Made by a program: the position numbers and the translations under genes. From a virus: 64,000 bases of DNA. The notes beneath the pieces are model-generated. The model was given only the letters and a program-made list of their open reading frames with translations, was not told the DNA's origin and searched no databases. Of this stretch, positions 1-26,707 are shown piece after piece (within the stretch, counting starts at the first letter, position 1; each line of letters opens with the position of its first letter). The stretch covers positions 1 to 64,000 of the IMG/VR virus record IMGVR_UViG_3300035703_000077, one strand, 5' to 3'.

Positions 1-1569
1 GCGCGGCGTAAAGTTTGCCGGGTCATACACCAATGGTGTCATGATAAGCGGTACATACGGAGCATAAACCGCACCAGTCTCAAGGAAGTTATTTCCTCTA
101 AAGCCCATTAAGATCTCGTTAGAGGTCATATATGGGTTCTTGTAAACGGTGTATCTATTAGCCATAGAGCCAATTGAAGTTACACCAGCTGCAAATTGCA
201 TTGCATCTTTGTCAGCGTTAGTAATGAATCCTGGGATCGACTCCAGAATCGTACATACGTCAGGCGAAGCCACGACAAAGTTTGCACCACCGCGAAGTGT
301 TAATTGGTGAATCTTGTTAGATACTTTGTTCAATTTAACACCAAGGGTTTGGTACCAAGTGTTCTTTTGGTATGCGAGCGACGAATCACCACCTACCCAA
401 GCACCCGTATTTGGGTTGTACTCTTCACCTACCACGGTTGACCAGTATTCGGTCGTCAGTGCGTTGGTCTTTAACATATCAAGGATTTCCAAGTCGATTT
501 CCAAAGAAATGTACTCGGATAACATAGATGTTAATTCAGCTTCAGCGTCAATCGAGTGGTAAGCATTCAAGTCTTGGGCAAGTTCAGGAGTCCAGACAGC
601 CTTTAACTTTCTTGTCTTAGCAACGATTGCTTCGCTTCTTAATTCAAGGTCGATTTCAGGAATGTTGATATCCGTACCATCATTCAATCCGTTGGTTGCA
701 CCAGTACCTCTAATTGGGTCTTGATCTTCGAAGTCACCTCTGTCATAATCTAATGGTTGCTCGGAGAATTTAACCAAAACCGTACCAGAACCAGATGCAA
801 TGTTCGTTACTTTAGCAAAGAAATAAACATTAGTTGCATCAGCATAAGTAAATTGTGGGTAGAACGAATCTGCCGCAGCAAATACAGAAGACGAGAAGTA
901 GAACGAACGTGCTGCTTCATAGTCTGCAGAACCAGAGAAATTAGCCTTTGGAATTGCAATTCTAGCTAAGCGGTCGGTAGGAGCCGTACCAGCAGTAGAT
1001 GCAGAAAGTGCTGCATCAAAACCTACTTGCACCCAAGATGCAGTAGTTACAGTACCAACAGTAGTGGTTTCAGTCGTATTTACGGTATAACCATAACGTC
1101 CTTCACCGTACAAACCGTTAACTGCTTCTTTAGTTCTACCAAAGTCACCGTTAAACGTGGAAGTACCATTACCACCGAATAAAGATTTACCGTCAAACGC
1201 AGGATTACCTGGCTTAGCAGTACCATACTTGAAGTCCAAGTAGAAAATAAGACCAGAAGGCAAGTTCATAGGTTGAACCGAAACAAATTCTTTTGCAGCG
1301 ATTTCACCAAAAATACGTCTTACCAACGGAAGTGCAACACCACTCCACTCTTCGGAACCAGTTGCAGTACCAGTCGAGGTAGCCTCGTCAAGTAATTGCT
1401 TTGCTTGGTTCTCCAACAGAACAGACATAGAATGTTGTTCTCTCTCTTTCAGACCTTCCAAAAGACCAGTTTTAGACCACTTAGTACGCAGTCCTCTAGT
1501 TTGTTCAAGCATTACTGCTTGTGGGTTTTTACCCTCCATCAGTCTATTAATGTCAAAATTACGTTTCAT
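1..1569 (-). CDS. 23: Major capsid protein gp23, C-terminus cut by window edge
   Basis: This is the T4-type major capsid protein that builds the hexamers of the head. 523 codons are visible and the frame is still open at the left edge, in a region (YDPANFTPR) that in T4 gp23 lies near the C-terminus, so roughly the last 50 residues are probably missing. The N-terminus MKRNFDINRLMEGKN is a removable propeptide. The stretch QLLDEATSTGT at residues 58-68 matches the place where T4 gp23 is cut after Glu65, so I predict cleavage between E62 and A63. The following VRRIFGEIAAKEFVSVQPMN matches the conserved start of the mature T4 protein. The gene follows the scaffold gene after 14 bases and has a strong AAGGAG ribosome binding site. 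Confidence 0.95.
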   Translation of the reverse strand, partial: MKRNFDINRLMEGKNPQAVMLEQTRGLRTKWSKTGLLEGLKEREQHSMSVLLENQAKQLLDEATSTGTATGSEEWSGVALPLVRRIFGEIAAKEFVSVQPMNLPSGLIFYLDFKYGTAKPGNPAFDGKSLFGGNGTSTFNGDFGRTKEAVNGLYGEGRYGYTVNTTETTTVGTVTTASWVQVGFDAALSASTAGTAPTDRLARIAIPKANFSGSADYEAARSFYFSSSVFAAADSFYPQFTYADATNVYFFAKVTNIASGSGTVLVKFSEQPLDYDRGDFEDQDPIRGTGATNGLNDGTDINIPEIDLELRSEAIVAKTRKLKAVWTPELAQDLNAYHSIDAEAELTSMLSEYISLEIDLEILDMLKTNALTTEYWSTVVGEEYNPNTGAWVGGDSSLAYQKNTWYQTLGVKLNKVSNKIHQLTLRGGANFVVASPDVCTILESIPGFITNADKDAMQFAAGVTSIGSMANRYTVYKNPYMTSNEILMGFRGNNFLETGAVYAPYVPLIMTPLVYDPANFTPR

Positions 1570-3021: not shown

Positions 3022-3039
3022 ATTTTATAATTTAAGTTT

Positions 3040-6926: not shown

Positions 6927-7508
6927 TTAACGTAACATTATCATTTCTTTCATTAGGTGCTGTGCTCTACACCAATCACCACATTTGTCCGCAGTTATTT
7001 TATTTACAACTGATTCGTAAATAGGTGTCATAAATGCACCGTGGGTGGATGGGTTAGATACAAAATCCCAACATAACAATTCAAAATCCTCACCAACTTC
7101 TGTCTTTCCACCGTTTTGTTGAGTTGAACCCATACCACGAGATGAAATACCTAATAGAATTTCAGCTCTCAATAATTCTTTTAGAATATTACCAGATGGT
7201 GTTGGTAAAATTTCAACTACACCAACAATATCGTTTCCATTCCAATATAATTCTTTTATGTTATGGGATACATTTTTTAAATTAATAACGGTAGAATCTG
7301 GGTGGTCTAATTCACCAAGTGCTCTACGTTCTTTGATTAATTTTTGGTATTTATCAACTTCACGACGTAAAACACGTTCAGGATATATTCTACCATTTTG
7401 GTTTTCTGCACCTGCACGCTGTAGGACACCCTTTACAAGTGTCCTACCATTTGCATCCTCATTTATTTTACCTTCAAAAAGTTGTGTTTCAATTAAAAGT
7501 GATTTCAT
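6927..7508 (-). CDS. 21: Prohead core protease gp21
   Basis: The 193-residue protein is the serine protease that matures the T4-type prohead by cutting scaffold, capsid and internal proteins at L/I-x-E sites. The catalytic His lies in LGELDHP (H69) and the Ser in LLGISSRGMGS (S122 or S123), with DFELLCWDFVSNPS after them, as in herpesvirus-like prohead proteases. RAGAENQNGRIYP (31-43) is a further family signature. Its own N-terminus has possible self-cleavage sites (LFE before G, INE before D). It is close to T4 gp21 in length (about 210 residues). It is surrounded by genes carrying candidate substrate sites. Confidence 0.93.
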   Translation of the reverse strand: MKSLLIETQLFEGKINEDANGRTLVKGVLQRAGAENQNGRIYPERVLRREVDKYQKLIKERRALGELDHPDSTVINLKNVSHNIKELYWNGNDIVGVVEILPTPSGNILKELLRAEILLGISSRGMGSTQQNGGKTEVGEDFELLCWDFVSNPSTHGAFMTPIYESVVNKITADKCGDWCRAQHLMKEMIMLR

Positions 7509-9303: not shown

Positions 9304-11058
9304 TTATAAATCCATATAATCGATCAAATTATCCTCATTTAATATTGTTTTTTTATTATTTCTACTCTTCAAAAAGTTTAAAATTTTGTTTTTTGGAATA
9401 GATTCGGATACTCTATTTCGATTTTTGTGATTTTCCTTGTCACCCAATGGATCTCTACCATATGGATGTCTATCTTTTCTATAAGAACTTGTGTCCTTTG
9501 GTCGACCACCCCCATTGCCATCATTTGGTTTGTTTCTGCCATCTTCTATTTCTTTTTTTATCCTATGTATTTCTTCTTCAACATCGGTTGCGCTTCTATT
9601 TTCTTCGGCAGCTGGATCGGTTCCTTCATTTTCAATTGTATTATATCTATATTTTTCCATTAAATCTCTAATGATCTTACCGCGCTCCTCTTTGGCTTCA
9701 TTATCACCAATATTCATAATATTTTTATAAATCCAATCATCAGACACCATCTTAATTTCTTTCATATCACGAACCAATGAAACTTTGGTTGCCCATAAAT
9801 TAATCTTTTCTTGTTCGTATATTGTGGATGAGTTAGTTAGTGTTAAATTAAAATCAGTTAATCTATCATCAGTAACTCCTTGTGTATATAAGTGTATAAT
9901 AGCTATTTTAGTTAATTCACTCTCAAGTATACGCTGTATGCGCTCTATCGTTCTAGCAAATCTAACATCGTGCGCTGCAAGAGTTGCTTTACCAGATAAA
10001 TCTTCTTCGTAAGATAAGTATGCCTTTGGAACTTTAAGTGCTGCAAATAATCTTTTTTGCAAATACTCAATATCTTCAATGGCAGCATATTCAAGACCTG
10101 CCAAATTCTCAATGGATGTTCCACTATCACCACCCCTAACCGGTAAAAAGAAATCCTCGGTTAAGTTTTGCATATTAAATTTTAAATTATAGTCACCCGT
10201 TCTCTTATCAACCAATTCGGCTTTTTTCATTTTATTCATTATTTTTTGCATAAAATTATCAATTTCGGTTGGATTTATACCACCAATATCAATTTTAAAT
10301 ATGCGTTTTTCGGGTGCTCTCATTATTCTATGAATAAGCATAGCATCTTCCATCAGGGTTAATTGTTTCCAAATACGTCTAGCATTTTCTAACATAGATT
10401 TACCATATGGTAAAAAGTTTGTATCAGCTAATAATCTAAAATGTGCCATTTCAAAGTTATCATACTCACCCCTACCTAGCGGATCTTGTTCTACTTTAAA
10501 TTTAACTTTGTTTGGATCTTCACTATCCCAACCTTCCAATCTTTCGGTATAATAAACTGATTGTGGATGTACATTTATTATTCCTAAATTTTCAGATATT
10601 TCCAATGCCATATAAAAATCACCATATTTGGCTAAATTTCTAGTCCACGGCCACAAATTAAACTCAATGTTCATTATATCATAGAATAAATTGTGTAATC
10701 TATCTTTAATGTCATCATCATTGGATTGAATCATCAATACGTCGCCAAATTCATTTTTGGTAGTAGCTTCATCAGCCATAACGTCCAATGCAGATGCAAT
10801 AATTGAGTCAGAATCCATTGCATCATAATCTCTAAACAATCTATGTCTATTATATTGATATGCCATTGCCATATCGGCAGTATTGTATTCATAATTTTTA
10901 TGAAGACGCATAAATCTATCTTGCAAAACATTAATATTAGTTTGCTGTCTTTCATTAAAATCTATTACTTTAATTTTACCATCTTTGTCTTTAATGACAA
11001 CGTCATTTGAAAACATTGATCGTAGCCTGTCTAACCAAGTTTTATCATTATTAGCCAT
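9304..11058 (-). CDS. 20: Portal vertex protein gp20
   Basis: This is the 584-residue portal subunit, a dodecamer at the head vertex through which DNA is packaged and ejected. Family features include the start DKTWLDRLRSMFSND, the segment MAYQYNRHRLFRDYDAMDSD, DEATTKNEFGDVLMI, and the central RIMRAPEKRIFKIDIG. T4 gp20 is 524 residues. The extra length is mostly a polar, low-complexity C-terminal tail (about 490-584) rich in Glu, Asn, Arg and Gly. It ends with ILNEDNLIDYMDL, where LNE resembles a prohead-protease site. It directly follows a cupin-like gene with a 3-base gap. Confidence 0.93.
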   Translation of the reverse strand: MANNDKTWLDRLRSMFSNDVVIKDKDGKIKVIDFNERQQTNINVLQDRFMRLHKNYEYNTADMAMAYQYNRHRLFRDYDAMDSDSIIASALDVMADEATTKNEFGDVLMIQSNDDDIKDRLHNLFYDIMNIEFNLWPWTRNLAKYGDFYMALEISENLGIINVHPQSVYYTERLEGWDSEDPNKVKFKVEQDPLGRGEYDNFEMAHFRLLADTNFLPYGKSMLENARRIWKQLTLMEDAMLIHRIMRAPEKRIFKIDIGGINPTEIDNFMQKIMNKMKKAELVDKRTGDYNLKFNMQNLTEDFFLPVRGGDSGTSIENLAGLEYAAIEDIEYLQKRLFAALKVPKAYLSYEEDLSGKATLAAHDVRFARTIERIQRILESELTKIAIIHLYTQGVTDDRLTDFNLTLTNSSTIYEQEKINLWATKVSLVRDMKEIKMVSDDWIYKNIMNIGDNEAKEERGKIIRDLMEKYRYNTIENEGTDPAAEENRSATDVEEEIHRIKKEIEDGRNKPNDGNGGGRPKDTSSYRKDRHPYGRDPLGDKENHKNRNRVSESIPKNKILNFLKSRNNKKTILNEDNLIDYMDL

Positions 11059-11917: not shown

Positions 11918-13492
11918 TTATTTAAATAACCATCTAATATCTTCTTTGCTATCACCAACTTCTATTGAATATGGGTCTTCATTATTCCCATTTTGCACAT
12001 ACATACCAACTGAATAAGATGATATATTTTCTAATGCTTTAGTCGTAATGTTAATTCCCTCTTGTTTTAATCTAATAGCCGTGTCTCTAATCCATAATGA
12101 TATTGAAAATGCCATAACAAGGTCATCATTGTAGCCTTGCATTGCCTGTGCCTTTGAGTTTTTCCAAATAAATACAAATAATTCATCTATAAGTCGTGTT
12201 GATTTTATTGTAATCGCCTTTGACGTTAAATACTCATCTAGTTTGGATATAATAAGTGGTCTAGTGCGTGATGTAGTTGAAAAACCTGCAACCAAATTAC
12301 GTTCAGACGCATTTATTTTGTTTGTCAATTGACGTTGTGTATCTACATAACGTAAATCCTTACTCATATAAAACAAATTGCCATAATTTCTATCAATACA
12401 TTGCTGAATAGTTGCCCAACCAACGTTTGAATTTTCTATCACTAAAAGTGCATCGTTATATTCAGTTGCAAGTGAAACCAAAAAGTTACCAAAGTCTTTT
12501 GTATCCATCTTACCTTTGTATTCTGCAACTTGGGTTAGATTTACTATGTCTATAACTTGAGCACCTGAATAGTCAGATGCATCACCCCTAGCAACGTCCG
12601 CACATACAATATAGGTTCCACTTGTGTTTGGATATTCCCATATCCATAAATTACCATCAATACCACGCTTTTCTTGTGGTTCTTCAATGTGTGTATTTTT
12701 ATAAAACATTAAAATATCAGGATCTATTACATTATCACCCGAGCTTATAAACGAACAATCACATTCTTGTGCTGCGGCTTTAACTCCTAATAATCGGTCT
12801 TGCTCATCTCTCCATCGTTTGTCTCGCTCTGGATGGACTGACCAATGCAATTTTGTTGTCATAAACCCATTTAGTCCATTTTCAGCATCCATCCAAGTTT
12901 TGTGAAACCAGTTTCCAACACCATTTGGCGTAGAAAGTGCAATACAACTACCACCTGTAGATAACGTAGATTGTGCAGAAATCCAAATTTCTTCGGCAAC
13001 ATCAATAAACGCAGCCTCATCAAAAACTAAAAGTGAAAGTGCTTCAGATCTACCTGCGTCTGGTGAAGATGCGATTGCTTTAATTTGAGATCCATTTGCT
13101 AAACGCAACGATAATTTATTATCTTCCGCAGCCGCACCTCGTAACCACGTTGGTAATAAGTCGTGCATCACCCTAACTTTTGTAACCAAATTTTTAGCAA
13201 CTTCTTGCTTTGTTGCAATAATCAAAACATTAAAATCATTATTAAATAACATTTTCCACAATGAAAACCCAGCAACCAATGTAGAAATACCAGTTTGGCG
13301 TGATTTTAAAACAATATTAAATCTATTGTCTTTAAAATTTACTAAAGTTTTTTCTTGAAATGGGTATAGATGAAATGGGATTTTACCTCTAATTGGATGC
13401 TGTATTTTACAATATTTTTTCATAAAATACACAGGATCTACTGCACATTTTTTATAATCATCCGCAATTAAGTCTTTTAATGATTTTGACAT
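11918..13492 (-). CDS. 17: Large terminase subunit gp17
   Basis: This is the 524-residue DNA-packaging motor with N-terminal ATPase and C-terminal nuclease domains. The Walker A is LKSRQTGIST (63-71), the Walker B is LLVFDEA (154-160), and the coupling motif is ALSTPNGVGNW (185-195). Nuclease acidic residues are probably D299 (CADVARGD), E353 (VIENSNVG) and D456/D457 (GYNDDLVMAFS). T4 gp17 has 610 residues, so this is a shorter version. The leader contains AAAGG and AGGG stretches. The gene immediately downstream is a tagged cargo-type gene and not a sheath gene. Confidence 0.95.
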   Translation of the reverse strand: MSKSLKDLIADDYKKCAVDPVYFMKKYCKIQHPIRGKIPFHLYPFQEKTLVNFKDNRFNIVLKSRQTGISTLVAGFSLWKMLFNNDFNVLIIATKQEVAKNLVTKVRVMHDLLPTWLRGAAAEDNKLSLRLANGSQIKAIASSPDAGRSEALSLLVFDEAAFIDVAEEIWISAQSTLSTGGSCIALSTPNGVGNWFHKTWMDAENGLNGFMTTKLHWSVHPERDKRWRDEQDRLLGVKAAAQECDCSFISSGDNVIDPDILMFYKNTHIEEPQEKRGIDGNLWIWEYPNTSGTYIVCADVARGDASDYSGAQVIDIVNLTQVAEYKGKMDTKDFGNFLVSLATEYNDALLVIENSNVGWATIQQCIDRNYGNLFYMSKDLRYVDTQRQLTNKINASERNLVAGFSTTSRTRPLIISKLDEYLTSKAITIKSTRLIDELFVFIWKNSKAQAMQGYNDDLVMAFSISLWIRDTAIRLKQEGINITTKALENISSYSVGMYVQNGNNEDPYSIEVGDSKEDIRWLFK

Positions 13493-14844: not shown

Positions 14845-15153
14845 TTATAATGACTTTACTACTCTCACAAATGTATTAAAATCTTCAATATCTTTACCAA
14901 TTTGTCTTTCATAACCGAACTCATTATCACCTAAATAGAATGAACCTTGATTGTTTATCATAGCATTGCCTATAGGTATATACCATTGAGCCGTCACTGC
15001 AACTTTCATTATACCTATTTTAGTATTTTTAACTAGTATAGCTTCTATGTAATTTCTAGTTTTTTCCATTTTAAAACCCAATGACTTTAACGTCTTAACT
15101 TGATTTTCCATTTCAGTATCTTCTATTTCATTAATTATTCTTTTTAATTTCAT
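14845..15153 (-). CDS. Small tagged protein downstream of the polyprotein
   Basis: The 102-residue protein of unknown function begins MKLKRIINEIEDTEMENQV, a shorter variant of the amphipathic tag with INE as a possible prohead-protease site. The rest is a small alpha/beta domain (KIGIMKVAVTAQWYIPIG, GSFYLGDNEFGYERQIG). It has an AAGGAA ribosome binding site and sits 11 bases after the polyprotein gene. The two share a transcript ended by the hairpin at 14792-14820. I infer a further cargo or accessory protein of the polyprotein. Confidence 0.55.
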   Translation of the reverse strand: MKLKRIINEIEDTEMENQVKTLKSLGFKMEKTRNYIEAILVKNTKIGIMKVAVTAQWYIPIGNAMINNQGSFYLGDNEFGYERQIGKDIEDFNTFVRVVKSL

Positions 15154-15164
15154 ATTATTCCTTA

Positions 15165-18100
15165 TTAATACATAGTATTTAATATTTGATTTATTGGTGC
15201 AAATTTACCTGTTAGTTTCATTGGAACCCCTTTATATACAAATACGATACCTTCAACAGGTATAATTGTATCGGTTCCACCTATTGATTCTAACCTTTTT
15301 AATTCTATTTCTAACTTATTAAGTTTATTTGGGTCTCCTGATTTCTTGATATCATTTATTGCAGTATCTAATTTAGCTTTTACATTTTTAATTGCTGCAT
15401 CTGGGTTTACAACTAATGCAGATGACAGGAATGATAATATATCAGCACCAATACCTAAAAATATATCTTCAAATTTCATAAAGTTTTCTTTTTTAAACTT
15501 TGTAAAATCTTTTTTATCAATACCAACTGCCCAAGCTAAAAGTTTTTCATCACTTATATTCTTTTTATCTAATCTAAATGACTTATCCTCAAGTGCCCAT
15601 CGGTTTGTCAATCCATTTAATACATCAGCCGACACCGTAGTCGGTGCATTCTTTTTAATGTATGAACTCCACCACGCCTTGTGATAATCTACAACAGAAT
15701 TAGAGTCATTTAACCCAAATTCAGTTTGTAGTTTAGATAGCATACTTAAATACTTTGGCTTAAGATTATTTAAAGTTTGATTTTGTGGTAATTTTAATGC
15801 TGGTTGAGATTGAATGCTAAATTTATCTTGTACAGTTTGATTTACAGACTTTAACATCTTTTCTAATACCCTACCACTTTCTGGATCTTCGCCAATTGGG
15901 TTTCCATCTTCATCATATTCCAGTGTTCCGTGAAATACCAATAACGGCTGACCATAAACAATAACATTAGATGCCTCTGGGTATATAATTTCCAAACTCA
16001 TAAATTTAGAGCCCTCACCGAAAATTTGTTCTTTTTGGGTTTCGGACAATGCTGAAATTGCTTTTGTTAAGTCTTGCATCGCAAAGTTAAATGCATCTGC
16101 AATTCCACCTCTACCTTCAAATTTTGTAGCAACTTGTGTTATATCCATCGCAGTCTCACCTTTATTTTTTAATTGAGACTTTGACCTAGCTGCTACCAAT
16201 TTACCATTTTTCCAAGAAACGGTAATATTCATACCATCAGTTTTTTCTCTTGTAAATTCTAGGTTTCCTTCTAATGCTTTATTTACTATATTTTTTAAGT
16301 CTTTAAACGATAAATTCAAATCAGTCTCAAATGGGTGTGATAAATGACCATACGCACCACCTTCTAACAAAATGTTTTCTTTTATAGGTTTATAATGGCT
16401 ATCACCATCTATTTGACTATTAAATTTTTTACGCAATCTTTTTATTTCTTTATCGTGCTTATCCATCCATTTTTGATCTGGATATCCCATTAATAATTCA
16501 CTAATTTCATTTTTAGTCGCTTTTCTAACCATAGTTTCACGACTTCTAAAATCTTTGTTTTTTCCTTTATTTGGAACAAATCCAAATCCACGATAAAACT
16601 TTTCTAATCTAGATTTACTACTTGCACCAAAATCAGTTGATGGTGTCAAGAATATATCTTTACCAACCGAGTCTGCGTAATTAATTAGCACATTCATAGC
16701 TTTAGTACCAATACCAGTACCACGCTTTTCTTTAGGTATTTCCATTCTAGACAAAACTATGTAATCATTTCTTTCATAAATATCCGCAATGATGTCAAAT
16801 TGTTTTTCTATTTTATCTTCAATGTTTTCATTTAAATTGGATATAATATTATTTAAATTTGAGTCCTTATCAACTAAATTTTTAAATTCTTGTGATTTTA
16901 AAAACATATCATAATATTTTTTTTGATTACCATATGCCTCTTTTTCCCAAGGTAAATTCTTATATTGATTAAAATCCTTTTTCATCATATTTATCAAATC
17001 TTTAGCAGAAATGAAAACTTTACCATCCCATATTACTGATTTTACATCATCAGTTGATTTTAATTCATTTTTAACTACTTGTTTAACGTGTGTAAGTTCG
17101 TGTATAATTTGTTGTAAAATATTAGAATACGATTTATTTGGATTATATTGAATTATAAATGTTTTAGGAGGTTTAGGTCCAATAAGTATCCAAGCAGATG
17201 CTCCACTTTTAGAACTAGGACGACTGCGTTTTATAATTATTTTAGCAGAAAATCCAAGTGATTTTTGCATAAATTTTATTAATGAATCAAACAATATTTT
17301 TTCAGCAGGTTCAACTTTATTTGGTTTATCACCAAACAAGTTAGTTAAATCTGTATCTTCAAACTGATACTTTGGATTTGAGGTTTTAAAATCATTTTTA
17401 CGCATTACCGTTTTTGCAATGGCACTATTTGCACTTAACATAAACGGAATGTTTATATTTGTTCTATTATCTTTTGCAACGATTTGATTGTATTGTTTTA
17501 GAAATTCAATAAATTTCTTTTTATTTTTACTTAATCGTTTGAAAAATCCAATCAATTCAGCAGATGTAATTGGTTTATCATTACGTGGATCATTTAATCT
17601 ATCAAAAAAGTGTTTGTCTGTAATAACAACATTTATAGGTGATAATTGCTTATCCGCATACTGATCTATCTTTGCCAAATCATCTTTTGGTATTTCACTT
17701 AAAATAGATTCTGTTTTTCTCCATTTACCACCTAATTCTTTGTATTTTTTGGCAGCCCAAGCATTTGCGTATGCACTAGGGTATACATCAAACTTTTGTT
17801 TAGCTTGTGATTTTGCGTAGCTCCATTTTGCAGCATCGGTTGGTTCATTTTTTTCTAAAAATAAACTCATCACCTCATTTAAACGTTCTTCTAACCCAGT
17901 TTTAACAAATACAGGTTTTTGACCTTTTGTTTGCTCCCCACCTTTTTTAGCGTCACCTGCTTTTTTCTGTGCAGCTCTTTTTCGTCTTACGAAAGACGCA
18001 ATACCATCTTTACCTAACTTTCGTGCCTTTTCATTGGATAAACATACAGAATATGGTTCACCTTCTTTTGCATCACCACATTTACCTAATTTCTCACCCG

Positions 18101-19601
18101 TAGTGGAATATCTATCCCACCCACCGGTTGGACCAGATCCAAGCCATTTTCTTAAATCTTCTGTCATTTTTTTTGTTTTCGGTTTTTTCATTTTTTTTGT
18201 TTCTTTAGTTTCCACCGGTTCAACTGGAACCCATTCGTCAACCCCAACCGGTTTTAGTGCTGGTTTTAGGGTACTAGATTTATAATTGGTGACGGTAAAA
18301 GTAGCCTTACGGGTTAATAACTCTGGTGTTCTATCTTTTTTTAACCTACCTCGCATAAAACTAGCTCTTGGTTTATCCATTTGTGTATATCCAAGTTGTT
18401 TAAACCAAGGTTCAGGCTTACCTCTATCTAATAATCTTAAATTACCATCCGTTGTATATGAGGTTTCAGGTGATCCTGCTGCAATATCACCACCATAAAA
18501 ACTTTCATTTTTTGGATTTAGGTATTGTGCACTTTTAACATCAGTGGCATCCAATACATCTTTTTTTATTAATTTTTTTTGTAATTTATCATTTTCAATT
18601 GCGTATTTATCTTTTAAAATAGAATACCCAACTAATGTTGACTTATTAAGAACACTATTCACCCAATCATCATATGATGTGCCGTCTTTCATTTTTTCTC
18701 TGTCTTCAGCATCTCGTCTCCAAGGCACACCTATTTCAAAATTAGTTATATAACCAGGATCTCTTAGTTCATTATAGTCTTCCATTGTGTCGTTAACCAA
18801 ATGACTTATTACGTGCCAACCGAGTTTAGCAGCACGCTCTGCATTAACTCCCTTATATACATCTATATCCTTTAAAAATAAACCAGGTCCATCATCAATT
18901 GGTTTTCCAAATGCTGGCCAAGTTGCAATAGATATTTCTATTAATTTTTTATTTGATTTATTTTTAAGCCAGTTTTCTATTATTTCCTTTGATACAAATA
19001 AGTTTTCACTTTCGTTTAATTTACCAACAATTAAATCATATATTTTTTTATCAAACTTTGGATATAACTTTTTGAAAACCTTTAGCTTTTCATCATCAGT
19101 TCCGGTTTTTAAAATATTTCTAACTTCAGTTCCACTAAGTCCACCACCACCTGGATCATCAATGTAAACATAGCCCCCATCTAAAAATCCTACCTCGGCT
19201 TTACCTTCCCAAGGTTTAAAATACTTACCACCAGTGAATCGGTTAGCATCTTTGCTAGATACAAATATAATAAGTGCAGTTGTCTCTGGATCGTATTTTT
19301 GTAAAATTTCTTTTGGGGAATATGGATTTTTTACATTTTGTATAAAGTTTGGATTGACACCAAACATTCTTTGAATTATAAGTTTTTTCTCTTTAAAATT
19401 AAAAGGTGATTTTGGTAATTCAACTTTGTCGGACGTTGCAATATAAACATCCGCACCTTTAAATTTAGATTTAAGTTTAGAATATGAGTCAAAGTGTCCA
19501 CTATGGAATGGTTGAAATCTACCACCATAAATAACAACTATATTTTTTATAGTGTTTTCTTCTAAAATTTCATTTACAATTTCGTTTATAAAGTCTATCA
19601 T
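15165..19601 (-). CDS. Giant multi-enzyme polyprotein, probable processed capsid cargo
   Basis: The protein has 1478 residues from MIDFINEIVNEILEEN. An in-frame extension to 19640 runs into a terminator and is rejected. Modules in order: nucleotidyltransferase with GGRFQPFHSGH (H33, H36) and LSGTEVRN (156-162), like NMN or cytidylyl transferases; an unassigned region (200-400); a GWDRY/KCGDA Cys module (494-549); a DUF5872-like module, FDVYPSAYANAW (about 588-628); a phage module beginning DKHFFDRLNDPRN (662-748); a zincin-like domain with HELTH (834-838); a GNAT fold with RGTGIGT (960-966); and a ligase-like domain with KTDG (1120-1123), SLEII (1202-1206), VEG (1449-1451) and KLTGK (1462-1466). 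L-x-E sites at 195-197, 575-577, 634-636, 923-925 and 1078-1080 fall between modules, and the last (LLE before GG) fits the gp21 consensus best. I infer that the chain is cut inside the prohead. Confidence 0.8.
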   Translation of the reverse strand: MIDFINEIVNEILEENTIKNIVVIYGGRFQPFHSGHFDSYSKLKSKFKGADVYIATSDKVELPKSPFNFKEKKLIIQRMFGVNPNFIQNVKNPYSPKEILQKYDPETTALIIFVSSKDANRFTGGKYFKPWEGKAEVGFLDGGYVYIDDPGGGGLSGTEVRNILKTGTDDEKLKVFKKLYPKFDKKIYDLIVGKLNESENLFVSKEIIENWLKNKSNKKLIEISIATWPAFGKPIDDGPGLFLKDIDVYKGVNAERAAKLGWHVISHLVNDTMEDYNELRDPGYITNFEIGVPWRRDAEDREKMKDGTSYDDWVNSVLNKSTLVGYSILKDKYAIENDKLQKKLIKKDVLDATDVKSAQYLNPKNESFYGGDIAAGSPETSYTTDGNLRLLDRGKPEPWFKQLGYTQMDKPRASFMRGRLKKDRTPELLTRKATFTVTNYKSSTLKPALKPVGVDEWVPVEPVETKETKKMKKPKTKKMTEDLRKWLGSGPTGGWDRYSTTGEKLGKCGDAKEGEPYSVCLSNEKARKLGKDGIASFVRRKRAAQKKAGDAKKGGEQTKGQKPVFVKTGLEERLNEVMSLFLEKNEPTDAAKWSYAKSQAKQKFDVYPSAYANAWAAKKYKELGGKWRKTESILSEIPKDDLAKIDQYADKQLSPINVVITDKHFFDRLNDPRNDKPITSAELIGFFKRLSKNKKKFIEFLKQYNQIVAKDNRTNINIPFMLSANSAIAKTVMRKNDFKTSNPKYQFEDTDLTNLFGDKPNKVEPAEKILFDSLIKFMQKSLGFSAKIIIKRSRPSSKSGASAWILIGPKPPKTFIIQYNPNKSYSNILQQIIHELTHVKQVVKNELKSTDDVKSVIWDGKVFISAKDLINMMKKDFNQYKNLPWEKEAYGNQKKYYDMFLKSQEFKNLVDKDSNLNNIISNLNENIEDKIEKQFDIIADIYERNDYIVLSRMEIPKEKRGTGIGTKAMNVLINYADSVGKDIFLTPSTDFGASSKSRLEKFYRGFGFVPNKGKNKDFRSRETMVRKATKNEISELLMGYPDQKWMDKHDKEIKRLRKKFNSQIDGDSHYKPIKENILLEGGAYGHLSHPFETDLNLSFKDLKNIVNKALEGNLEFTREKTDGMNITVSWKNGKLVAARSKSQLKNKGETAMDITQVATKFEGRGGIADAFNFAMQDLTKAISALSETQKEQIFGEGSKFMSLEIIYPEASNVIVYGQPLLVFHGTLEYDEDGNPIGEDPESGRVLEKMLKSVNQTVQDKFSIQSQPALKLPQNQTLNNLKPKYLSMLSKLQTEFGLNDSNSVVDYHKAWWSSYIKKNAPTTVSADVLNGLTNRWALEDKSFRLDKKNISDEKLLAWAVGIDKKDFTKFKKENFMKFEDIFLGIGADILSFLSSALVVNPDAAIKNVKAKLDTAINDIKKSGDPNKLNKLEIELKRLESIGGTDTIIPVEGIVFVYKGVPMKLTGKFAPINQILNTMY

Positions 19602-20122: not shown

Positions 20123-20881
20123 TTAGTTATTATATTGGTTCATTAAAGTGGTAATTTCATCTTCTGTTAAATATGGATATGGATTATGATACCCCAACGA
20201 TCCCAGATTGTATTTAGATTCAACTGAAAACAACCTAGCATATTCAATGGATGCATATTTGCCAATATTATATTTTATCATTCGTAATGAAAAAAATAGG
20301 TCTTCTGCAAAAAAAGATGCGGTTGACGCATTACCCAAATCTATTAGTTCATTTAAGTCCGTGTTCCAATTATGAAATCTACAAATATATTCCATTGTTC
20401 TTGGATTTCGCAATGATAGACCACCATTTAATATGGCATATTCATTTACGTAAGAATTACAAGGTGCCCCAATATAATCCCAATCGTAAAATGACTCTAT
20501 GCCATTACGTAATATACCACTATCCATTTGAAAAGTCAATACTCTATAAAATTTATTAAAAGTTTTCCAAAAATCAGTTGATGTCATTAATAAGCAATAA
20601 TTTAGTATCTCTTTCATTTTACTATTATTCATCAATTCATCAAAACCATTCAATTTGAAAAATAAAGATGGTATTGGTATTGCCTGATTGTAAATACCAA
20701 TTGTTACATTATTAGTATATCCAAACTTTTTTAATTGAGATTTATATGGTCTAACCAAATCATTTTGGGTATATACATACAATTTTGTATCTTTTGGTAG
20801 ATATTTTAAATGATCGTGGCATACCTTACCAAAATTGTCAAATTCTCTATTTTCAACTATAACAGCTGCTAATTGTTGCAT
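20123..20881 (-). CDS. DUF5672-type glycosyltransferase
   Basis: The 252-residue protein carries the pattern of DUF5672 transferases: LAAVIVENREFDNF at the start, RVLTFQMDSGILRNGIESF, YDWDYIGAPC, LNGGLSLRNPRTM and AEDLFFSL. The conserved Asp in QMDS and the NGGLSLR loop probably bind the nucleotide sugar. I choose the ATG giving MQQLAAV, preceded by GGGAAAG, over one twelve codons earlier because the family usually begins close to this beta strand. The start overlaps the previous gene by 13 bases. Confidence 0.75.
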   Translation of the reverse strand: MQQLAAVIVENREFDNFGKVCHDHLKYLPKDTKLYVYTQNDLVRPYKSQLKKFGYTNNVTIGIYNQAIPIPSLFFKLNGFDELMNNSKMKEILNYCLLMTSTDFWKTFNKFYRVLTFQMDSGILRNGIESFYDWDYIGAPCNSYVNEYAILNGGLSLRNPRTMEYICRFHNWNTDLNELIDLGNASTASFFAEDLFFSLRMIKYNIGKYASIEYARLFSVESKYNLGSLGYHNPYPYLTEDEITTLMNQYNN

Positions 20882-21573
20882 ATTAAACTTTCCCAATTTA
20901 CCATAGGTGATAGCCATTTAGTCTCCCCGTGGGTTGATGTTGCAGGTATTGATGAAACTAATGTTCTACCTCTTTGTGAAAGTTCTAAAAACATATTAAA
21001 ATCATTTGGGTGGTTTCCGGTTGTCCATTTACGTAGTATTACCTCATCTCTTTTTAATGTAGATGCCATTGCCGCAAACGTCATTGTAGTTGAATTTGTG
21101 ATTTTATAATGAGATAATTTACCACAATAAACTCTACTCACTTCAGACTTTCCTTCACAAAACGGGTTTCCACCTTGACTTGGATTTAAGTATTTATCAG
21201 GATGATCGTATCCAGTAACATAATCAAATCCCATTGAAATGCCGTCCGCTATAACAGATTCAGCATTTGGTGTATGCACGTAATCATTTTCTAATAAATA
21301 AACAATTTCATCATTTGACTCTCTAATTGCGTAATCAAGCGCTATATTAAATGATTTTGCAGATGAGTTTGCATTTACATTTATGTAAGTAGCACGATTA
21401 TCTGTTACGTTGTATATCATATCTATTGTTTGACTAGAGGCGTCATCCATCAATATAATAAATTGAGAATTTATAAATGTAGTCCAAGCATTTCTTAAAC
21501 AATTTTCATTGTTAATCCAAGATGGCTTATCTTTTTTATAACCAGTGTCTGATATTCTATAAATTACTTTCAT
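20869..21573 (-). CDS. GT-A-like glycosyltransferase
   Basis: The 234-residue protein starts at the ATG giving MKVIYRISDTGYKKDKPSW, with GAAAGG upstream. A longer frame begins 16 codons earlier inside the neighbouring gene. It has the alpha/beta layout of GT-A transferases: FIILMDDASSQTIDMIYNV, a SAKSFNIALDYAIRES helix and VYLLENDYVHTPNAE, where the acidic END/DY segment is the probable metal and nucleotide site. MTFAAMASTLKRDEVILRKW near the end is the probable acceptor side. The sugar specificity is unknown. Confidence 0.65.
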   Translation of the reverse strand: MKVIYRISDTGYKKDKPSWINNENCLRNAWTTFINSQFIILMDDASSQTIDMIYNVTDNRATYINVNANSSAKSFNIALDYAIRESNDEIVYLLENDYVHTPNAESVIADGISMGFDYVTGYDHPDKYLNPSQGGNPFCEGKSEVSRVYCGKLSHYKITNSTTMTFAAMASTLKRDEVILRKWTTGNHPNDFNMFLELSQRGRTLVSSIPATSTHGETKWLSPMVNWESLICNN

Positions 21574-22261
21574 TTCGCCTTTCAAAATATTTAATAAACA
21601 ATGGCAATTTATCAGCGGCATAATCTACATTTGGAACTACACTATATATAATAGGTTTTATATTATATTTAGTAAATAATTGAGACCATAACCGCTCGGT
21701 TCCCCGTTGTTCGTTTTTGTTATTTACACTTACATATTTAATTTCTTCTATTTTAAACAAATCTTCTTTTGTTATTCCAAATATAGGTCCAAAAATGCCA
21801 AATACATAAGGTTCTAGTTTATTTATAGTAATTATACTATTACACCAATTAAATTGCTCATCATTGTCGAAGTATGAAACTCCAATACCATAAAACCCAC
21901 ACCACACAAATGGCTGATTATTTGATACACTCTTAAATACTATATCATATGTCTTATCAGACCTAGCAATTAAATTATCGTGTTGAAAAAAGTATTTATT
22001 AAAATTAAAATCGTTTTCAATTATCGTTTTAATTGAGCTGAAATCAAACATTTTATATTTAGATTCAATATAAGTAAAATTTAATTTTTCACATAATTTT
22101 TTAGTTTGAAATATAAATTCGTAATCAGTTGAACCAGTATCTACAACAATTACATTTTGATTTGGGTTATTATTATTTATCAACTTTAAATTATCGTGTA
22201 AATATTTTATGCCATTGTTAGTAGATATTACAACAGAAGTATCAGAATTTTTCAATCTCAT
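21557..22261 (-). CDS. Probable GT-A glycosyltransferase
   Basis: The 234-residue protein begins DTSVVISTNNGIKYLHDNL and VIVVDTGSTDYEFIF, the two N-terminal beta strands typical of family 2-like transferases, with DTGSTD as the nucleotide-binding turn. KYFFQHDNLIARSD may replace the usual DxD motif. The C-terminal half has FGIFGPIFGITKEDLF and GTERLWSQLFTKY. It overlaps both neighbours by 17 to 20 bases, showing one tightly packed operon. Donor and acceptor are unknown. Confidence 0.6.
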   Translation of the reverse strand: MRLKNSDTSVVISTNNGIKYLHDNLKLINNNNPNQNVIVVDTGSTDYEFIFQTKKLCEKLNFTYIESKYKMFDFSSIKTIIENDFNFNKYFFQHDNLIARSDKTYDIVFKSVSNNQPFVWCGFYGIGVSYFDNDEQFNWCNSIITINKLEPYVFGIFGPIFGITKEDLFKIEEIKYVSVNNKNEQRGTERLWSQLFTKYNIKPIIYSVVPNVDYAADKLPLFIKYFERRNESNL

Positions 22262-23138
22262 CTAAAACCCCTTTTACATCAAACATTTCTTCCATTGATG
22301 TGTATGGACATTCGTGATATAACCCACCTAATTGAAAATCAAAATACATTGAGTCAGGTAATTTTGTTCGCTCTGGTGGTGGATTTGCAACTATATTATT
22401 ATGCAAGTCGTATCCAAAAACATTAGGTTTTGTGCCAATCCAAATAACATTTGATGTCAATTTAAATGCAGCTGCTGCGTGCTGTAAGCACGAATCAATC
22501 AATACACGTTTTGCAGATACTAATAACAATGAAAATAATTCAAAGTTTGATAGCGGTTTAAATATTGGCTCAACCGATGGATGTTGTATAGCTTGTTGTT
22601 CTGCTTTGCAAACTTGCATAATATGGTATTGATTTCCAAATCTATTTACAATCTCGGACGATAATGTAATCGGCATATCACGAGACCAACTATAAATTGG
22701 TTGCCCGTCTGCAATAGGTCCACCATTGGTATGCAATAGTAGAATTGGCTTCTCTCGTCTCCAAAGTGAAGAAAAATTCTGTTGCATCATATTCATATGA
22801 ACTTCGGGTAAAGCATTACCATCATACTCTAATCCATAAATTTCGTGCCAGGTTTTTAGTAGCGAATCTTTTTGATTAATGTGCCCGCTTTCAAAATAAG
22901 GCTCTCTACGTAGAAATATAGTATCGGAGTTTTTAATATACTCTTCCCAAAAATAAGGAGCAAAACCTATTTTATAAACCCGATAAACGTGTGGGTTATT
23001 TAAAAATACCTCTGGCCACGCAGTCATTACAACTAGTTTTCTATCTTTATATTTTTTTTTAATTGCAGGCAGAATAGCAGTTGATGCGACAATTTTACCT
23101 AAACCACCTTCTGCGTGAAATACTACATATTTTTCCAT
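22242..23138 (-). CDS. GT9-like (heptosyltransferase-type) GT-B glycosyltransferase
   Basis: The 298-residue protein resembles the heptosyltransferase-type GT9 family: VVFHAEGGLGKIVASTAILP at the start, KKKYKDRKLVVMTAWPEVFL, NPHVYRVY, then in the second lobe KRVLIDSCLQHAAAAFKL, which matches the SxxxHlAaal nucleotide-sugar site, and VIWIGTKPNVFGY. GT9 enzymes add heptose or related sugars to lipopolysaccharide cores, so the target could be a surface glycan or a virion glycan. No Shine-Dalgarno sequence is visible before the ATG. Confidence 0.7.
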   Translation of the reverse strand: MEKYVVFHAEGGLGKIVASTAILPAIKKKYKDRKLVVMTAWPEVFLNNPHVYRVYKIGFAPYFWEEYIKNSDTIFLRREPYFESGHINQKDSLLKTWHEIYGLEYDGNALPEVHMNMMQQNFSSLWRREKPILLLHTNGGPIADGQPIYSWSRDMPITLSSEIVNRFGNQYHIMQVCKAEQQAIQHPSVEPIFKPLSNFELFSLLLVSAKRVLIDSCLQHAAAAFKLTSNVIWIGTKPNVFGYDLHNNIVANPPPERTKLPDSMYFDFQLGGLYHECPYTSMEEMFDVKGVLDEIEKF

Positions 23139-23173
23139 TTTTTATTTTTTATTTATGTTTTAATATAATAAAA

Positions 23174-24265
23174 TTATTTGAAATTTTCAAATTCTTTTTT
23201 TGATCTGTGTAAAGATGATCCTATTACTTGGTGCATATCATAGTACTTATAATCTGCTAATCTACCACCAAATATGAAATTTGTTTCATTATTCATCAAA
23301 TATTTATACTTATTGTATTTTTGATTATTGGTTTGATTATTTATAGGATAGTAAGGTTCACCATTTAAAGTTGGATATTCTTTTGTTATAATTGTATGCG
23401 ATTGATTACCAAATTCAAAATGTTTGTGTTCAATTATACGTGTATATGGTATTTCATATTCGGTATAGTTTATACCAGCAGTTCCTTGAAAATCCATAAT
23501 ATCTAATGTTTCAGTTTTAAAGTCCAAACTTCTATAATCTAACTTTCCAAATTTGTAATCATAAAATCTATCAATTGGACCTGTATATACTATTTTATTT
23601 GCAATACTATCAAAATAATCTCTATTTGAAAAATAATCTTGATTTAATCTAACCTCAATTCCATCTAAAAGTTTTTCAAATATTTGAGTATATCCGCCTA
23701 TTGGTATTCCTTCATATCTATCAAAATAATAACTATCATCAAAATTGAATCTAATTGGTATTCGTTTTATTATAGATGTTGGTAATTCCTTTGGGTCACA
23801 TCCCCATTGCTTTTTGGTATATCCCCTTATAAAAATGTTATAAAGATCTTCGCCAATATTAGATAAACACCAATCTTCTAAATTTGTAGGTTTTTCAATG
23901 TGAATTTTATTGTCATCAAATAGTTTAATAGCGTCACTTGGAGTTTTGACATCATAAATTTGATACAATGTTAGTAAATTAATTGGAAATGAATAAATAT
24001 TACCTTTGTAATTTACCTTAGGTCTATACTTGAAATTATTAAATTCAACTAAGCAATTGACGTATTCCCAAATTTCTTTATTGGATGTGTGAAATATATG
24101 AGGACCATATTTATGAACGTTAATACCCTCTACGTTTTCTGTATAACAATTTCCACCTATATGTGACCTTTTATCAATCACTAAAACGGATTTTCCGTAG
24201 TTTTTCATTTCCCGTGCAAATACGGAACCAAATAAACCACTACCAACAATTAAATAATCATACAT
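23174..24265 (-). CDS. glf: UDP-galactopyranose mutase
   Basis: The 363-residue FAD enzyme converts UDP-galactopyranose to UDP-galactofuranose. The N-terminal dinucleotide fold is DYLIVGSGLFGSVFAREM, followed by VIDKRSHIGGNCY and the signature VHKYGPHIFHTSNKEIWEY. YTKKQWGCDPKELP and GGYTQIFEKLLDGI are further family motifs, and the C-terminal FIFGGRLADYKYYDMHQ is the flavin-binding end. Length is normal for the family. Its place among six transferases means the cluster can make galactofuranose for one of them. It ends 35 bases before the GT9-like gene. Confidence 0.95.
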   Translation of the reverse strand: MYDYLIVGSGLFGSVFAREMKNYGKSVLVIDKRSHIGGNCYTENVEGINVHKYGPHIFHTSNKEIWEYVNCLVEFNNFKYRPKVNYKGNIYSFPINLLTLYQIYDVKTPSDAIKLFDDNKIHIEKPTNLEDWCLSNIGEDLYNIFIRGYTKKQWGCDPKELPTSIIKRIPIRFNFDDSYYFDRYEGIPIGGYTQIFEKLLDGIEVRLNQDYFSNRDYFDSIANKIVYTGPIDRFYDYKFGKLDYRSLDFKTETLDIMDFQGTAGINYTEYEIPYTRIIEHKHFEFGNQSHTIITKEYPTLNGEPYYPINNQTNNQKYNKYKYLMNNETNFIFGGRLADYKYYDMHQVIGSSLHRSKKEFENFK

Positions 24266-24266
24266 T

Positions 24267-25451
24267 TTAGTTTGTTAATACATTAATAAAATTTAACCAC
24301 ATTTTACCAACTCTGTCTATATTAAAATTGCTTAAAATATAATCAGTTCCTCTATTTCTAATATTTTGTTTTAATGTTGGGTTTGCTTCTAAATAATAAA
24401 TTGCATCTAGTATATTATTTATATTGTTTTTAAATTTACCATCAGGATCTTTAGTTAATTTCTCACGCTGTATATCATCTACATTTACATAACTTGGAAA
24501 GTTTATCCAAAAACAATAGTCACGGAAATATTCAGGTAGGGCACCCAATTGATATGTTATAGGTATTGCACCCAATGCGATTGCTTCAGCAACTACACAC
24601 GAGAATGTATCTTTGTGGACATCTTGATATGGTGTATATAGCGGATATAAAAAGTATTCGCTTTCGGCAATATGAGAAAATAGTGTATGCTTATCAACCC
24701 CATTATGTGAGTTAAAGAAATGATCAGTATGTTGATGTGTGGCTAATAAATAATCAAATGAGTGAAATTCTAAATCAGGATAATTTAAATGACGCAACGC
24801 TTCAACTGCCACATCACCACCACGTGCCCAAGCTGCGTGGAAAACAAATTTATGTGGTTTTTTCTTTATATTTTTTGCTAAAACTTTATTAATCATCTCA
24901 TCCATAACAGGATTTGGTATTAATGTAGAAAATACTTTACTTTGGTATGAATTTTTGGCACTTTCTATTGTAGATTGGTTCATATTCTGCTCCCAATTTG
25001 AAATATTGACAAACCCAAGGGTTAAATTATTTTCTTTAGAATAATTTATTAATTCCCCAATTCCGTATATCCATTGCATATGACACCAATAAATAAGTGA
25101 CTTTTTGACTTTAATTGGTAATTTATCATAATGGTGAAACCATAATGAACTAACTAAAATATCAAACTCTAAATCATTAATATTCTCAAAATCTGTAAAT
25201 GTGTATGTAACTCCATTTACTTTTGTACCTGGTACAAAATCTATACCACTATTTTTATAGTCCTGTTCTAATTGTGGTTCTAATCTATCAAATGCAAAAA
25301 CAACATCGTGTCCTTGTTTTGCCAAATATTCAGCAACCAAAATGGAACTACCATCAGTACCTGATCCTCCACCATTACCATATCTAATAGTGTCACCTGT
25401 TAAATAATTACTTCTTCTACTATTTCCTATTACAATAAAAGCTATTCTCAT
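24267..25451 (-). CDS. GT-B glycosyltransferase (GT4-like)
   Basis: The 394-residue protein has an N-terminal GT-B lobe with GGGSGTDGSSILVAEYLAKQ and HDVVFAFDRLEPQ, and a second lobe with KFVFHAAWARGGDVAVEALR, ESEYFLYPLYTPYQDVHKDT and the family-4 signature FSCVVAEAIALGAIPITYQL, whose Glu contacts the donor. It ends one base before glf. A galactofuranosyl or other hexosyl transfer is plausible, but specificity cannot be read from sequence. Confidence 0.8.
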   Translation of the reverse strand: MRIAFIVIGNSRRSNYLTGDTIRYGNGGGSGTDGSSILVAEYLAKQGHDVVFAFDRLEPQLEQDYKNSGIDFVPGTKVNGVTYTFTDFENINDLEFDILVSSLWFHHYDKLPIKVKKSLIYWCHMQWIYGIGELINYSKENNLTLGFVNISNWEQNMNQSTIESAKNSYQSKVFSTLIPNPVMDEMINKVLAKNIKKKPHKFVFHAAWARGGDVAVEALRHLNYPDLEFHSFDYLLATHQHTDHFFNSHNGVDKHTLFSHIAESEYFLYPLYTPYQDVHKDTFSCVVAEAIALGAIPITYQLGALPEYFRDYCFWINFPSYVNVDDIQREKLTKDPDGKFKNNINNILDAIYYLEANPTLKQNIRNRGTDYILSNFNIDRVGKMWLNFINVLTN

Positions 25452-25453
25452 AT

Positions 25454-26707
25454 TTATAGTATTTTTTCATAGGGTTCGCTCCAACCAAGTTTTTCATCAT
25501 ACAAATACATTAAAATTTTGTATGGTTCTTGTTGACTAGAAAATCTAGCCAAATAATAATTTTCAATCAAATTAACTTGGTTTGGGTCAGTATTTATATT
25601 AAAATCTTTTCTATACAACTCTACATCATTTTTTGATAAAACACCCAAGGTTAAAAATTGTTTATTTTTAAAATCCAATTTAGAAAAAAATCCTAAATCC
25701 CACGTAATTCCAATTTCGTGTTTTTTTGATATAAAACCACTTTCCCAATCTCCTGTATATGGTGGTTCATTTACTTTTAAAGTATAATCGTGTATTCTAC
25801 ATTTTTTGAAATCAAATCCACCATAAACTTCATAATCACGCAATGTTCTAACATCACCAAGACCATAAATCCCCATATCTATACCATTATCTTCAGTGCC
25901 AAATAATTGTCTAGTTTTTTTACGGGCAAATATGTCACGCTCCCCACTTGTTTTTTTGGTTTCACTTTGGCTTCCGTGATCTTCCCAATGTTTTGGTCTG
26001 TAATTTCGTGTATACTCGTGCCACATTACCATTCTATACGGTGAGTACATATCCCACCCGTGTGTAAATGCACGAACTGATAAAGTGGTTTCTTCAGTAT
26101 ATCCACCAAAATATATATCCGGATCATACGGAACTTCTTTTATAAAATAACCCCAAGTAAAGTAAAAGTGACCACTTATAGTTCTAGCTTTTATAACACG
26201 ATTTCTTTGTTTATGATCTTGAATATACCAAGGCATACTCATTAAAAGTTTGTCAGAACTAAATTCGTATTGAGACATTAAAGATGGTATCAAATCCCAC
26301 GTAGGTCTATCTTTTGTTGGGTCAAACGGAGTGCAATACGTTGTTATTATTGGTTTTGGGGATTCTTCTAATGCCTGTTTAAAATCTTCTAATACAATTT
26401 CATCCCATCCCATTACAAATCTATGGTGTGAGTCAATTTGAAGTGTATATTCCTCATCATCGTACAATGAATTGGTCACTGATCGTGCCCACCCAAGTCC
26501 TTCCGACTTTGAATAGTGATATTTAGCTATTCTAAATCGTGGGTCATTATCGTATCTATTTATATCTTCGGTCTCGTCGTATTGCCAACAAATTCCAAAT
26601 GTTAAATTTTCTGGATTCTTGGCACGCTCCAACATATCTTCTATTGTTGGTATTAATTGTGGGTCTCTATAACTTGCGATTTGTACAAATATTTTATCTT
26701 TCTTCAT
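25454..26707 (-). CDS. GlcNAc-transferase family (GT60-like) glycosyltransferase
   Basis: The 417-residue protein opens with KIFVQIASYRDPQLIPTIED, the hallmark of the GlcNAc family (GT60), whose eukaryotic members add GlcNAc to hydroxyproline of Skp1. YTLQIDSHHRFVMGWDE holds a DxH in place of the usual DxD metal site, and YFGGYTEETTLSVRAFTHGW holds conserved acidic residues. After about residue 280 there is an extra C-terminal domain of mostly beta character (DYTLKVNEPPYTGDWESG). It is the first gene of the sugar cluster, directly downstream of the long fibre gene. Confidence 0.8.
   Translation of the reverse strand: MKKDKIFVQIASYRDPQLIPTIEDMLERAKNPENLTFGICWQYDETEDINRYDNDPRFRIAKYHYSKSEGLGWARSVTNSLYDDEEYTLQIDSHHRFVMGWDEIVLEDFKQALEESPKPIITTYCTPFDPTKDRPTWDLIPSLMSQYEFSSDKLLMSMPWYIQDHKQRNRVIKARTISGHFYFTWGYFIKEVPYDPDIYFGGYTEETTLSVRAFTHGWDMYSPYRMVMWHEYTRNYRPKHWEDHGSQSETKKTSGERDIFARKKTRQLFGTEDNGIDMGIYGLGDVRTLRDYEVYGGFDFKKCRIHDYTLKVNEPPYTGDWESGFISKKHEIGITWDLGFFSKLDFKNKQFLTLGVLSKNDVELYRKDFNINTDPNQVNLIENYYLARFSSQQEPYKILMYLYDEKLGWSEPYEKIL

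Follow-up and report, generated by a model that had tools for sequence, protein, structure and literature searches.

The 64,000-nucleotide stretch analysed here (the window) is part of a 68,389-bp IMG/VR virus record that is itself a fragment, and what we say about the source phage refers to the window rather than to a whole genome. One open reading frame (ORF) on its minus strand, running from 19601 down to 15165, encodes a giant polyprotein of 1478 residues. In our opinion, this polyprotein is probably a set of head cargo enzymes fused into one chain, built so that the prohead protease of the phage could cut it apart. The case is partly supported: it rests on the sites found at module borders, the natural ends of stand-alone homologues, N-termini resembling a capsid-targeting sequence (CTS), the head-gene neighbourhood, a gp21 homologue and linkers that are modelled with low confidence. 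Modularity, fusion and fission, border motifs, tag similarity, neighbourhood and the conservation of catalytic motifs are all directly visible in the data.

A preliminary description, made from the letters alone, had proposed a single chain with four enzyme-like modules. The chain is borne out, and the motifs sit at the residues given for them: HSGH at 33-36 (within GRFQPFHSGH, with SGTEVR downstream), HELTH at 834-838, RGTGIGT, KTDG at 1120-1123 and KLTG near the end. All four modules were recovered through Pfam, PHROG, fold matches and motifs. By its sequence the polyprotein is a modular chain with an NMNAT-type nucleotidyltransferase, several small phage modules, a zincin, a GNAT and a C-terminal RNA-ligase-like domain (Table 1); a single polypeptide thus holds at least two domains of unrelated biochemical activity.

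Putative cleavage motifs at module borders

The phage encodes both a gp21-type protease and a T4-type capsid protein, gp23. At the position of the T4 gp23 maturation cut, where T4 has FLTE/A (a slash marks a border or predicted cut), the capsid protein of the window reads NQAKQLLDE/ATSTG, that of Microcystis phage Mel-JY01 NQAKQLISE/AN and that of Flavobacterium phage immuto NQAKQIVSE/AN. Because the same motif stands at this maturation position, hydrophobic-x-Glu (hxE below) is likely to be the cleavage site of the phage's own protease. Such a motif lies within the first 25 residues of 12 of the 19 head-block genes and of 5 of the 28 other genes in the window (Fisher p 0.002).

The preliminary description had placed five L-x-E sites at module borders. 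Four are where they were reported (195-197, 634-636, 923-925 and 1078-1080), while the one given as 575-577 is actually at 574-576. That such sites mark borders is upheld by tests across the whole family and by the ends of stand-alone homologues. We took borders from an all-vs-all BLAST of the non-redundant family set. A [LI]xE lies within 12 residues of 54.6% of 317 internal homology starts, compared with 20.0 +- 2.2% at random positions (z 15.5), and the ends of homology behave alike (52.1%, random 20%). The control motifs [LI]xD, [LI]xK and xxK gave no enrichment at these family borders. When related borders were collapsed, 9.6 of 16 clusters had [LI]xE against 3.1 expected (z 4.0). Individual borders are more uniform still: the ligase-like domain is preceded by [LIVM]xE/GG in 43 of 44 family sequences, the VGDT module by hxE at 22 of 23 borders and the DDGP module at 13 of 15. 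Judged from sequence, the placement of L-x-E is far from chance and its number unremarkable.

If the sites lay inside folded domains, cleavage would be hard to sustain; in the AlphaFold models the five sites listed earlier give no such refutation, 195-197 being at the end of a helix. The blocks around 634-636, 923-925, 1033-1035, 1073-1075 and 1078-1080 have a predicted local distance difference test (pLDDT) of 27-59, and 574-576 falls in a low-confidence helix (block pLDDT 50). Linkers at most sites are probably flexible in the models. As the models reach modest mean pLDDT values of 61.5 and 64.8 (with natural spans as alignment rows), this disorder is only suggestive. Module m3 is probably disordered as well. 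Four further [LI]xE occurrences are within folded domains (833-835, beside the zincin active site, 941-943, 1185-1187 and 1236-1238), and those in well-folded parts would need protection by folding.

Outer domains kept, inner modules exchanged

Searched with the C-terminal domain, IMG/VR yielded at least 591 related stretches. We examined a set of 92 ORFs, among which complete members range from 421 to 1999 residues; by sequence, the polyprotein is one of a large family that lacks annotation. In most complete members the nucleotidyltransferase comes first and the ligase-like domain last, and what lies between is exchanged: relatives carry a CCA/poly(A) polymerase (1e-26 to 1e-29), HD, DUF5661 or ParB-like modules there and, judged by the HExxH motif, zincins. 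HExxH occurs in only 5 of 45 non-redundant members. The Mel-JY01 member (639 residues, in a 644-codon open frame) consists almost entirely of the two end domains and has IAE/GG at its ligase-like border, and LR756500 has the ligase-like domain without other modules.

Many modules also exist as genes of their own. The natural C-termini of stand-alone homologues align to residues 569 (Cys module), 923 (zincin) and 1026-1030 (GNAT), directly before the sites at 570-576, 923-925 and 1033-1035. The ADRH module is the end of a protein in a Methylophilales phage and, in a Flavobacterium phage, is internal to a small gene. At their N-termini, many stand-alone genes carry short tags: MIKLKSILSE on a zincin, MIRITSILSE on a Cys module, MIRLHKILNE on a ligase-like domain, MKTYNQFITE and MKTFSQFLQE on GNATs. 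These are reminiscent of the 10-residue tag of the T4 internal protein IPIII, in which residues 4 and 7 serve targeting and residues 8 and 10 processing (PMC9026906); in the T4 record IPIII starts with MKTYQEFIAE and gp24 with MAKINELLRE. A start with hydrophobic residues at 4, 7 and 8 and Glu at 10 is found in 17 of 28 nucleotidyltransferase-fronted members and 11 of 32 stand-alone module homologues, compared with 0.8% of Met-started 10-mers. Starts like MI[KR]Lxx[IL][LM]xE are common to 39 distinct proteins from many unrelated families. Across 871 genes of four phage records, Glu stands at position 10 in 20, compared with 3-7 for D, K, S or N. The leader of our polyprotein occupies the position where most relatives have a 10-residue CTS-like tag, for example MNELSQFLVE.

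Transitions between the fused and the separate state can be seen. Within the polyprotein of two relatives (L054 and L041), a complete tag that still has its start Met stands ahead of the ligase-like domain. In L028, L036, L052, L059 and L064 this domain is a tagged gene of its own, which in L059 overlaps the last part of the polyprotein upstream of it. The simplest account of these sequences is that genes fused and split at exactly the hxE borders.

Further tagged genes deserve mention in their own right. G005 has a row of separate ones (L256-L264, 126873-130133) with the starts MIRLTEILNE, MIKLSDILSE, MIRITSILSE and, on a zincin, MIKLRDILSE; the modules of this row are those fused in the window polyprotein or its relatives. 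Mel-JY01 has three adjacent paralogues (L246-L255, genome 60276-62718) with MIKLKSLLQE-like tags followed by ISDRVWHLTT. The latter resembles motifs of ADP-ribosyltransferase/Tpt1 type, and it is possible that these genes are tagged counterparts of T4 Alt. A second recurrent N-terminus, MKITKSQLRE(I/M)IRE..I(N/K)E, stands on two different head-block genes of the window (6440-6883 and 7540-7911), with similar starts in relatives (MKITKEQFKKIVRE); it may be another targeting tag.

The enzyme-like domains

The nucleotidyltransferase domain has a Pfam match to CTP_transf_like (2e-5) and is modelled mostly at pLDDT 80-95. With VIA-align the model matches NMNAT and PPAT structures at Z 10-11.7, PPAT as well as NMNAT, and the alignments stop at residues 196-201. 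HxGH and S(S/G)TxxR motifs are present on this fold, and from fold and motifs together NAD synthesis is a plausible candidate role. We also considered Namat as the identity of this domain and dropped it, Namat being Nampt-like. In another phage contig (L168), a stand-alone nucleotidyltransferase-like gene of 245 codons (2612-3346) adjoins a GNAT homologue (3971-4288).

In the zincin, H79, E80 and H83 together with E131/E133 (alignment numbering) are invariant in three diverse copies, so that HExxH is accompanied by a third-ligand candidate, the Glu in LPWEKEA about 50 residues after HELTH. The GNAT model is best matched in VIA-align by the anti-CRISPR acetyltransferase AcrVA5 (Z 10.6, root-mean-square deviation 2.8 over 93 residues), closely trailed by other GNATs.

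For the C-terminal domain, K44, D46, G47, E128, E374, G375 and K386 (alignment numbering) do not vary among 22 sequences whose identity goes as low as 36%; KxDG, LE, EGxV and the motif-V Lys of covalent nucleotidyltransferases are thus all conserved. Foldseek gave a weak match to T4 Rnl1 (E 0.03, prob 0.44) and weak matches to several viral RNA ligases in BFVD (E about 4e-3 to 0.1). PDB sequence searches, Pfam and hhalign against T4 Rnl2 gave nothing significant. VIA-align of the model of the C-terminal half is uninformative on this domain, since its matches were all taken by the GNAT. Because the Foldseek matches are weak, if repeated, and sequence searches point to no known family, we call the domain RNA-ligase-like and do not name it an RNA ligase. 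The annotation of T4 rnlA gives tRNA repair in prr hosts as its role.

Table 1. Features of the polyprotein and of its head-gene neighbours (residues are those of the polyprotein unless stated otherwise)
Feature	Position in window	Strand	Remarks
Whole polyprotein ORF, 1478 aa	15165..19601	-	ATG at 19601, stop codon 15165-15167
N-terminal leader, residues 1-15 (MIDFINEIVNEILEE)	19557..19601	-	helix with INE/VNE/LEE
NMNAT-type nucleotidyltransferase, 19-197	19011..19547	-	GRFQPFHSGH, SGTEVR
L-x-E site LNE, 195-197	19011..19019	-	end of nucleotidyltransferase domain
DDGP module, 223-345	18567..18935	-	LIE 220-222 just before; conserved in 31 relatives
Module m3, 346-480	18162..18566	-	in 6 relatives; pLDDT 25-40
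Cys module, 488-569 (MTE/DLRKWLGSGPTGGWDRYS)	17895..18140	-	also a gene of its own (L088-type phages, L179)
L-x-E site LNE, 574-576	17874..17882	-	
DUF5872-like module, 577-632	17706..17873	-	Pfam PF19197 E 0.0087, below cut-off; relatives
L-x-E site LSE, 634-636	17694..17702	-	INE/LSE/VNE/TNE at equivalent border in relatives
ADRH module, 637-748 (YADKQL...DKHFFDRLNDPRN)	17358..17693	-	homology in relatives
Zincin metalloprotease module, 754-925	16827..17342	-	HELTH 834-838; phrog_16532 3e-16
L-x-E site LNE, 923-925	16827..16835	-	
GNAT module, 926-1030	16512..16826	-	RGTGIGT; phrog_10691 1e-21
L-x-E site ISE, 1033-1035	16497..16505	-	
YPDQ peptide module, 1040-1066	16404..16484	-	relatives
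L-x-E site LLE, 1078-1080	16362..16370	-	border of ligase-like domain
C-terminal covalent-nucleotidyltransferase (RNA-ligase-like) domain, 1081-1478	15168..16361	-	EKTDG, AR, LE, EGIVF, KLTG
Gene downstream of polyprotein	14845..15153	-	CTS-like start MKLKRIINE/I
Terminase large subunit (TerL)	11918..13492	-	by position and resemblance; part of conserved neighbourhood
Portal	9304-11058	-	by position and resemblance
gp21-type prohead protease	6927..7508	-	Peptidase_S77 8e-26; phrog_207 2e-52
gp23 major capsid protein	1..1569	-	runs off window; PDB match to T4 gp23*, 3e-29
Predicted protease site LDE/A in gp23, gp23 residues 60-62	1384-1392	-	NQAKQLLDE/ATSTG

Genomic setting

Since gp23, a gp21-type protease, a putative portal and TerL all lie in the window, the source phage is, by these genes, T4-like. 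The polyprotein gene stands at the upstream end of this head-gene block, on the same strand as the four genes. In Mel-JY01 and in long relatives, too, the polyprotein is followed by a few small genes and then by terminase, portal and protease.

Between the polyprotein and the tail genes (20123-26707) there is a cluster of putative glycosyltransferase and UDP-galactopyranose-mutase-like genes, so assigned by appearance only. Beyond it, 26768-31111 encodes a 1447-residue protein whose end resembles an S74-type chaperone (SDIRLKENI); its cysteine-rich region, with CGC, CIC and CGG repeats, is unusual for a phage tail fibre.

Proposed mechanism

Many small enzymes of such T4-like phages would each carry, at the N-terminus, a short capsid-targeting tag whose last residues are hydrophobic-x-Glu. 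Several tagged genes would then have been joined in frame, with the NMNAT-type enzyme coming to the front, the RNA-ligase-like enzyme to the back and the other modules (here the zincin, the GNAT and the small Cys and DUF modules) being shuffled into the middle; of every tag, at least the final hydrophobic-x-Glu would have been retained on joining. Probably the front tag draws the chain into the prohead, the gp21-type protease cuts it at the x-x-E borders during head maturation, and the freed enzymes are ejected together with the DNA. Packaging, cleavage, injection and the roles of the enzymes are what we infer here. Once in the host, the enzymes could restore NAD and repair cleaved tRNA (by the ligase here, by the CCA/poly(A) polymerase in relatives), and the GNAT and zincin could modify host proteins before any phage gene is expressed. 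The recurrent theme of nucleotidyltransferase, ligase-like domain and CCA/poly(A) polymerase would fit a role in restoring, early on, NAD and tRNA that host defence has damaged.

It is possible, if perhaps a little short of an even matter, that the picture is broader: T4-like environmental phages would concatenate tagged genes so that one tag packs a kit of NAD-, RNA- and protein-modifying enzymes, which is cut inside the capsid. The kit would include a new family of virion-borne RNA ligases, and its middle cassette would be exchanged rapidly to meet local host defences.

Weighing the explanations

Several observations count against a head cargo that is cut by the prohead protease. The total of [LI]xE in the polyprotein is not raised (17, compared with 14.3 +- 3.3 in shuffles), for which reason we rejected a mere listing of L-x-E in one protein as evidence. 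The border statistics are inflated by related sequences, and the de-duplicated test has only 16 clusters. Conserved hxE may in part be inherited with the modules, as a remnant of fusion at which cutting has ceased. Site 195-197 closes the last helix of the nucleotidyltransferase (block pLDDT 79), where NMNAT structures also end. The polyprotein's own start, MIDFINEIVNE, contains INE and VNE and misses the register of hydrophobic 4, 7, 8 and Glu 10. Tagged genes need not lie near gp21, as G005 and Mel-JY01 show, and in G005 some tagged genes are distant from the head genes. Finally, we found no virion proteome containing a family member in the literature, which also counts for an ordinary multi-domain enzyme that works in the cytoplasm, early or late, outside the virion, with cooperating domains (for example NAD synthesis and RNA repair). 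Phages such as KVP40 have genes for NAD enzymes that are not known to be injected, and in Flavobacterium phage immuto a NadR-like multi-domain gene lies outside the head genes. Yet the location of the polyprotein within the head-gene block, the T4-type tags carried by family members and by stand-alone modules, and the splitting off of the ligase-like domain as a tagged gene all speak against a cytoplasmic enzyme, as do the weakly structured linkers, which are not what one working enzyme would suggest; we regard it as quite improbable. The immuto protein itself (L017:5644-8382, immuto35A_182; 908 residues, annotated as NadR) has a nucleotidyltransferase (KPPHLAHFEN) and two HExxH-like motifs, and appears by sequence to be another multi-enzyme protein of similar style.

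The chain may instead be a polyvalent protein that is injected whole and is processed in the host by its own zincin, or not at all, its hxE motifs being relics of fusion. The design is that of the polyvalent proteins (PMC5512222), the zincin has an intact HELTH with a downstream Glu, GNAT homologues occur in DarB-like and PLxRFG proteins, and N4 vRNAP and P1 DarB are packaged as large proteins. Self-cleavage by the zincin might account for this member. As a general rule for the family we rejected it, because so few members have HExxH, yet hxE borders are near-universal; moreover, the preference of the borders for E over D, K, N or S fits a prohead protease. Injection of the whole chain thus seems unlikely to us. 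If the chain does enter the prohead and is cut there, it could still mainly serve head assembly as a scaffold-like core protein, given that T4 IPIII mutants assemble heads more slowly (PMC9026906) and that core proteins, too, are cut many times by gp21. The catalytic motifs of the nucleotidyltransferase and ligase-like domains are nevertheless intact across very diverse members, and a rapid exchange of enzymatic modules is not expected of a scaffold, which makes this the least probable of the explanations considered. A cargo of enzymes fused for cleavage in the head remains the reading we prefer.

Relation to known systems

If this reading is correct, the hundreds of environmental relatives would be a large reservoir of enzymes acting in the first minutes of infection, NAD and RNA repair would be supplied from the virion itself, and polyvalent proteins could arise by fusing tagged genes and be dismantled by a prohead protease, with no need for a built-in protease domain. 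It would also provide a general and testable rule for finding head-delivered effectors: one would look for genes that start with the 10-residue tag (Glu at position 10, hydrophobic residues at 4, 7 and 8) and for giant ORFs whose internal borders carry x-x-E.

Polyvalent proteins and T4 internal head proteins are already known, and the polyprotein would be a variant of these. The polyvalent proteins (Iyer et al. 2017, PMC5512222; among them P1 DarB and PLxRFG proteins) likewise unite several unrelated enzymatic domains in one large protein of a mobile element. As in their phage type, a portal-terminase system is encoded alongside, and a zincin and a GNAT of the same phage family (phrog_10691 for the GNAT) recur. 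Unlike them, the present family has a fixed NMNAT front and RNA-ligase-like back, its borders bear a prohead-protease motif and a zincin is the exception among its members. The text of PMC5512222 does not contain the word 'nicotinamide' and mentions RNA ligase only in connection with 2H domains.

With T4 IPI-IPIII and Alt (PMC9026906), most family members, and also stand-alone modules, share the 10-residue tag, and the source phage, like T4, has a gp21-type protease. T4 cargo consists of separate proteins, whereas here many cargo proteins are fused, with internal x-x-E sites. The ejection proteins of phiKZ, 201phi2-1 and SPN3US are large head proteins that a gp21-related protease cleaves behind a Glu, in the motifs A-x-E and S-x-E; within the available portion of that account (PMC5694885) the cuts remove propeptides, and no chain yielding several separate enzymes is mentioned. 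T4 Rnl1 has the nucleotidyltransferase motif set in common with the ligase-like domain, together with the weak fold matches. Unlike Rnl1, the ligase-like domain has about 245 residues between its candidates for motifs III and IV, and our searches found no significant sequence similarity to RNA ligases.

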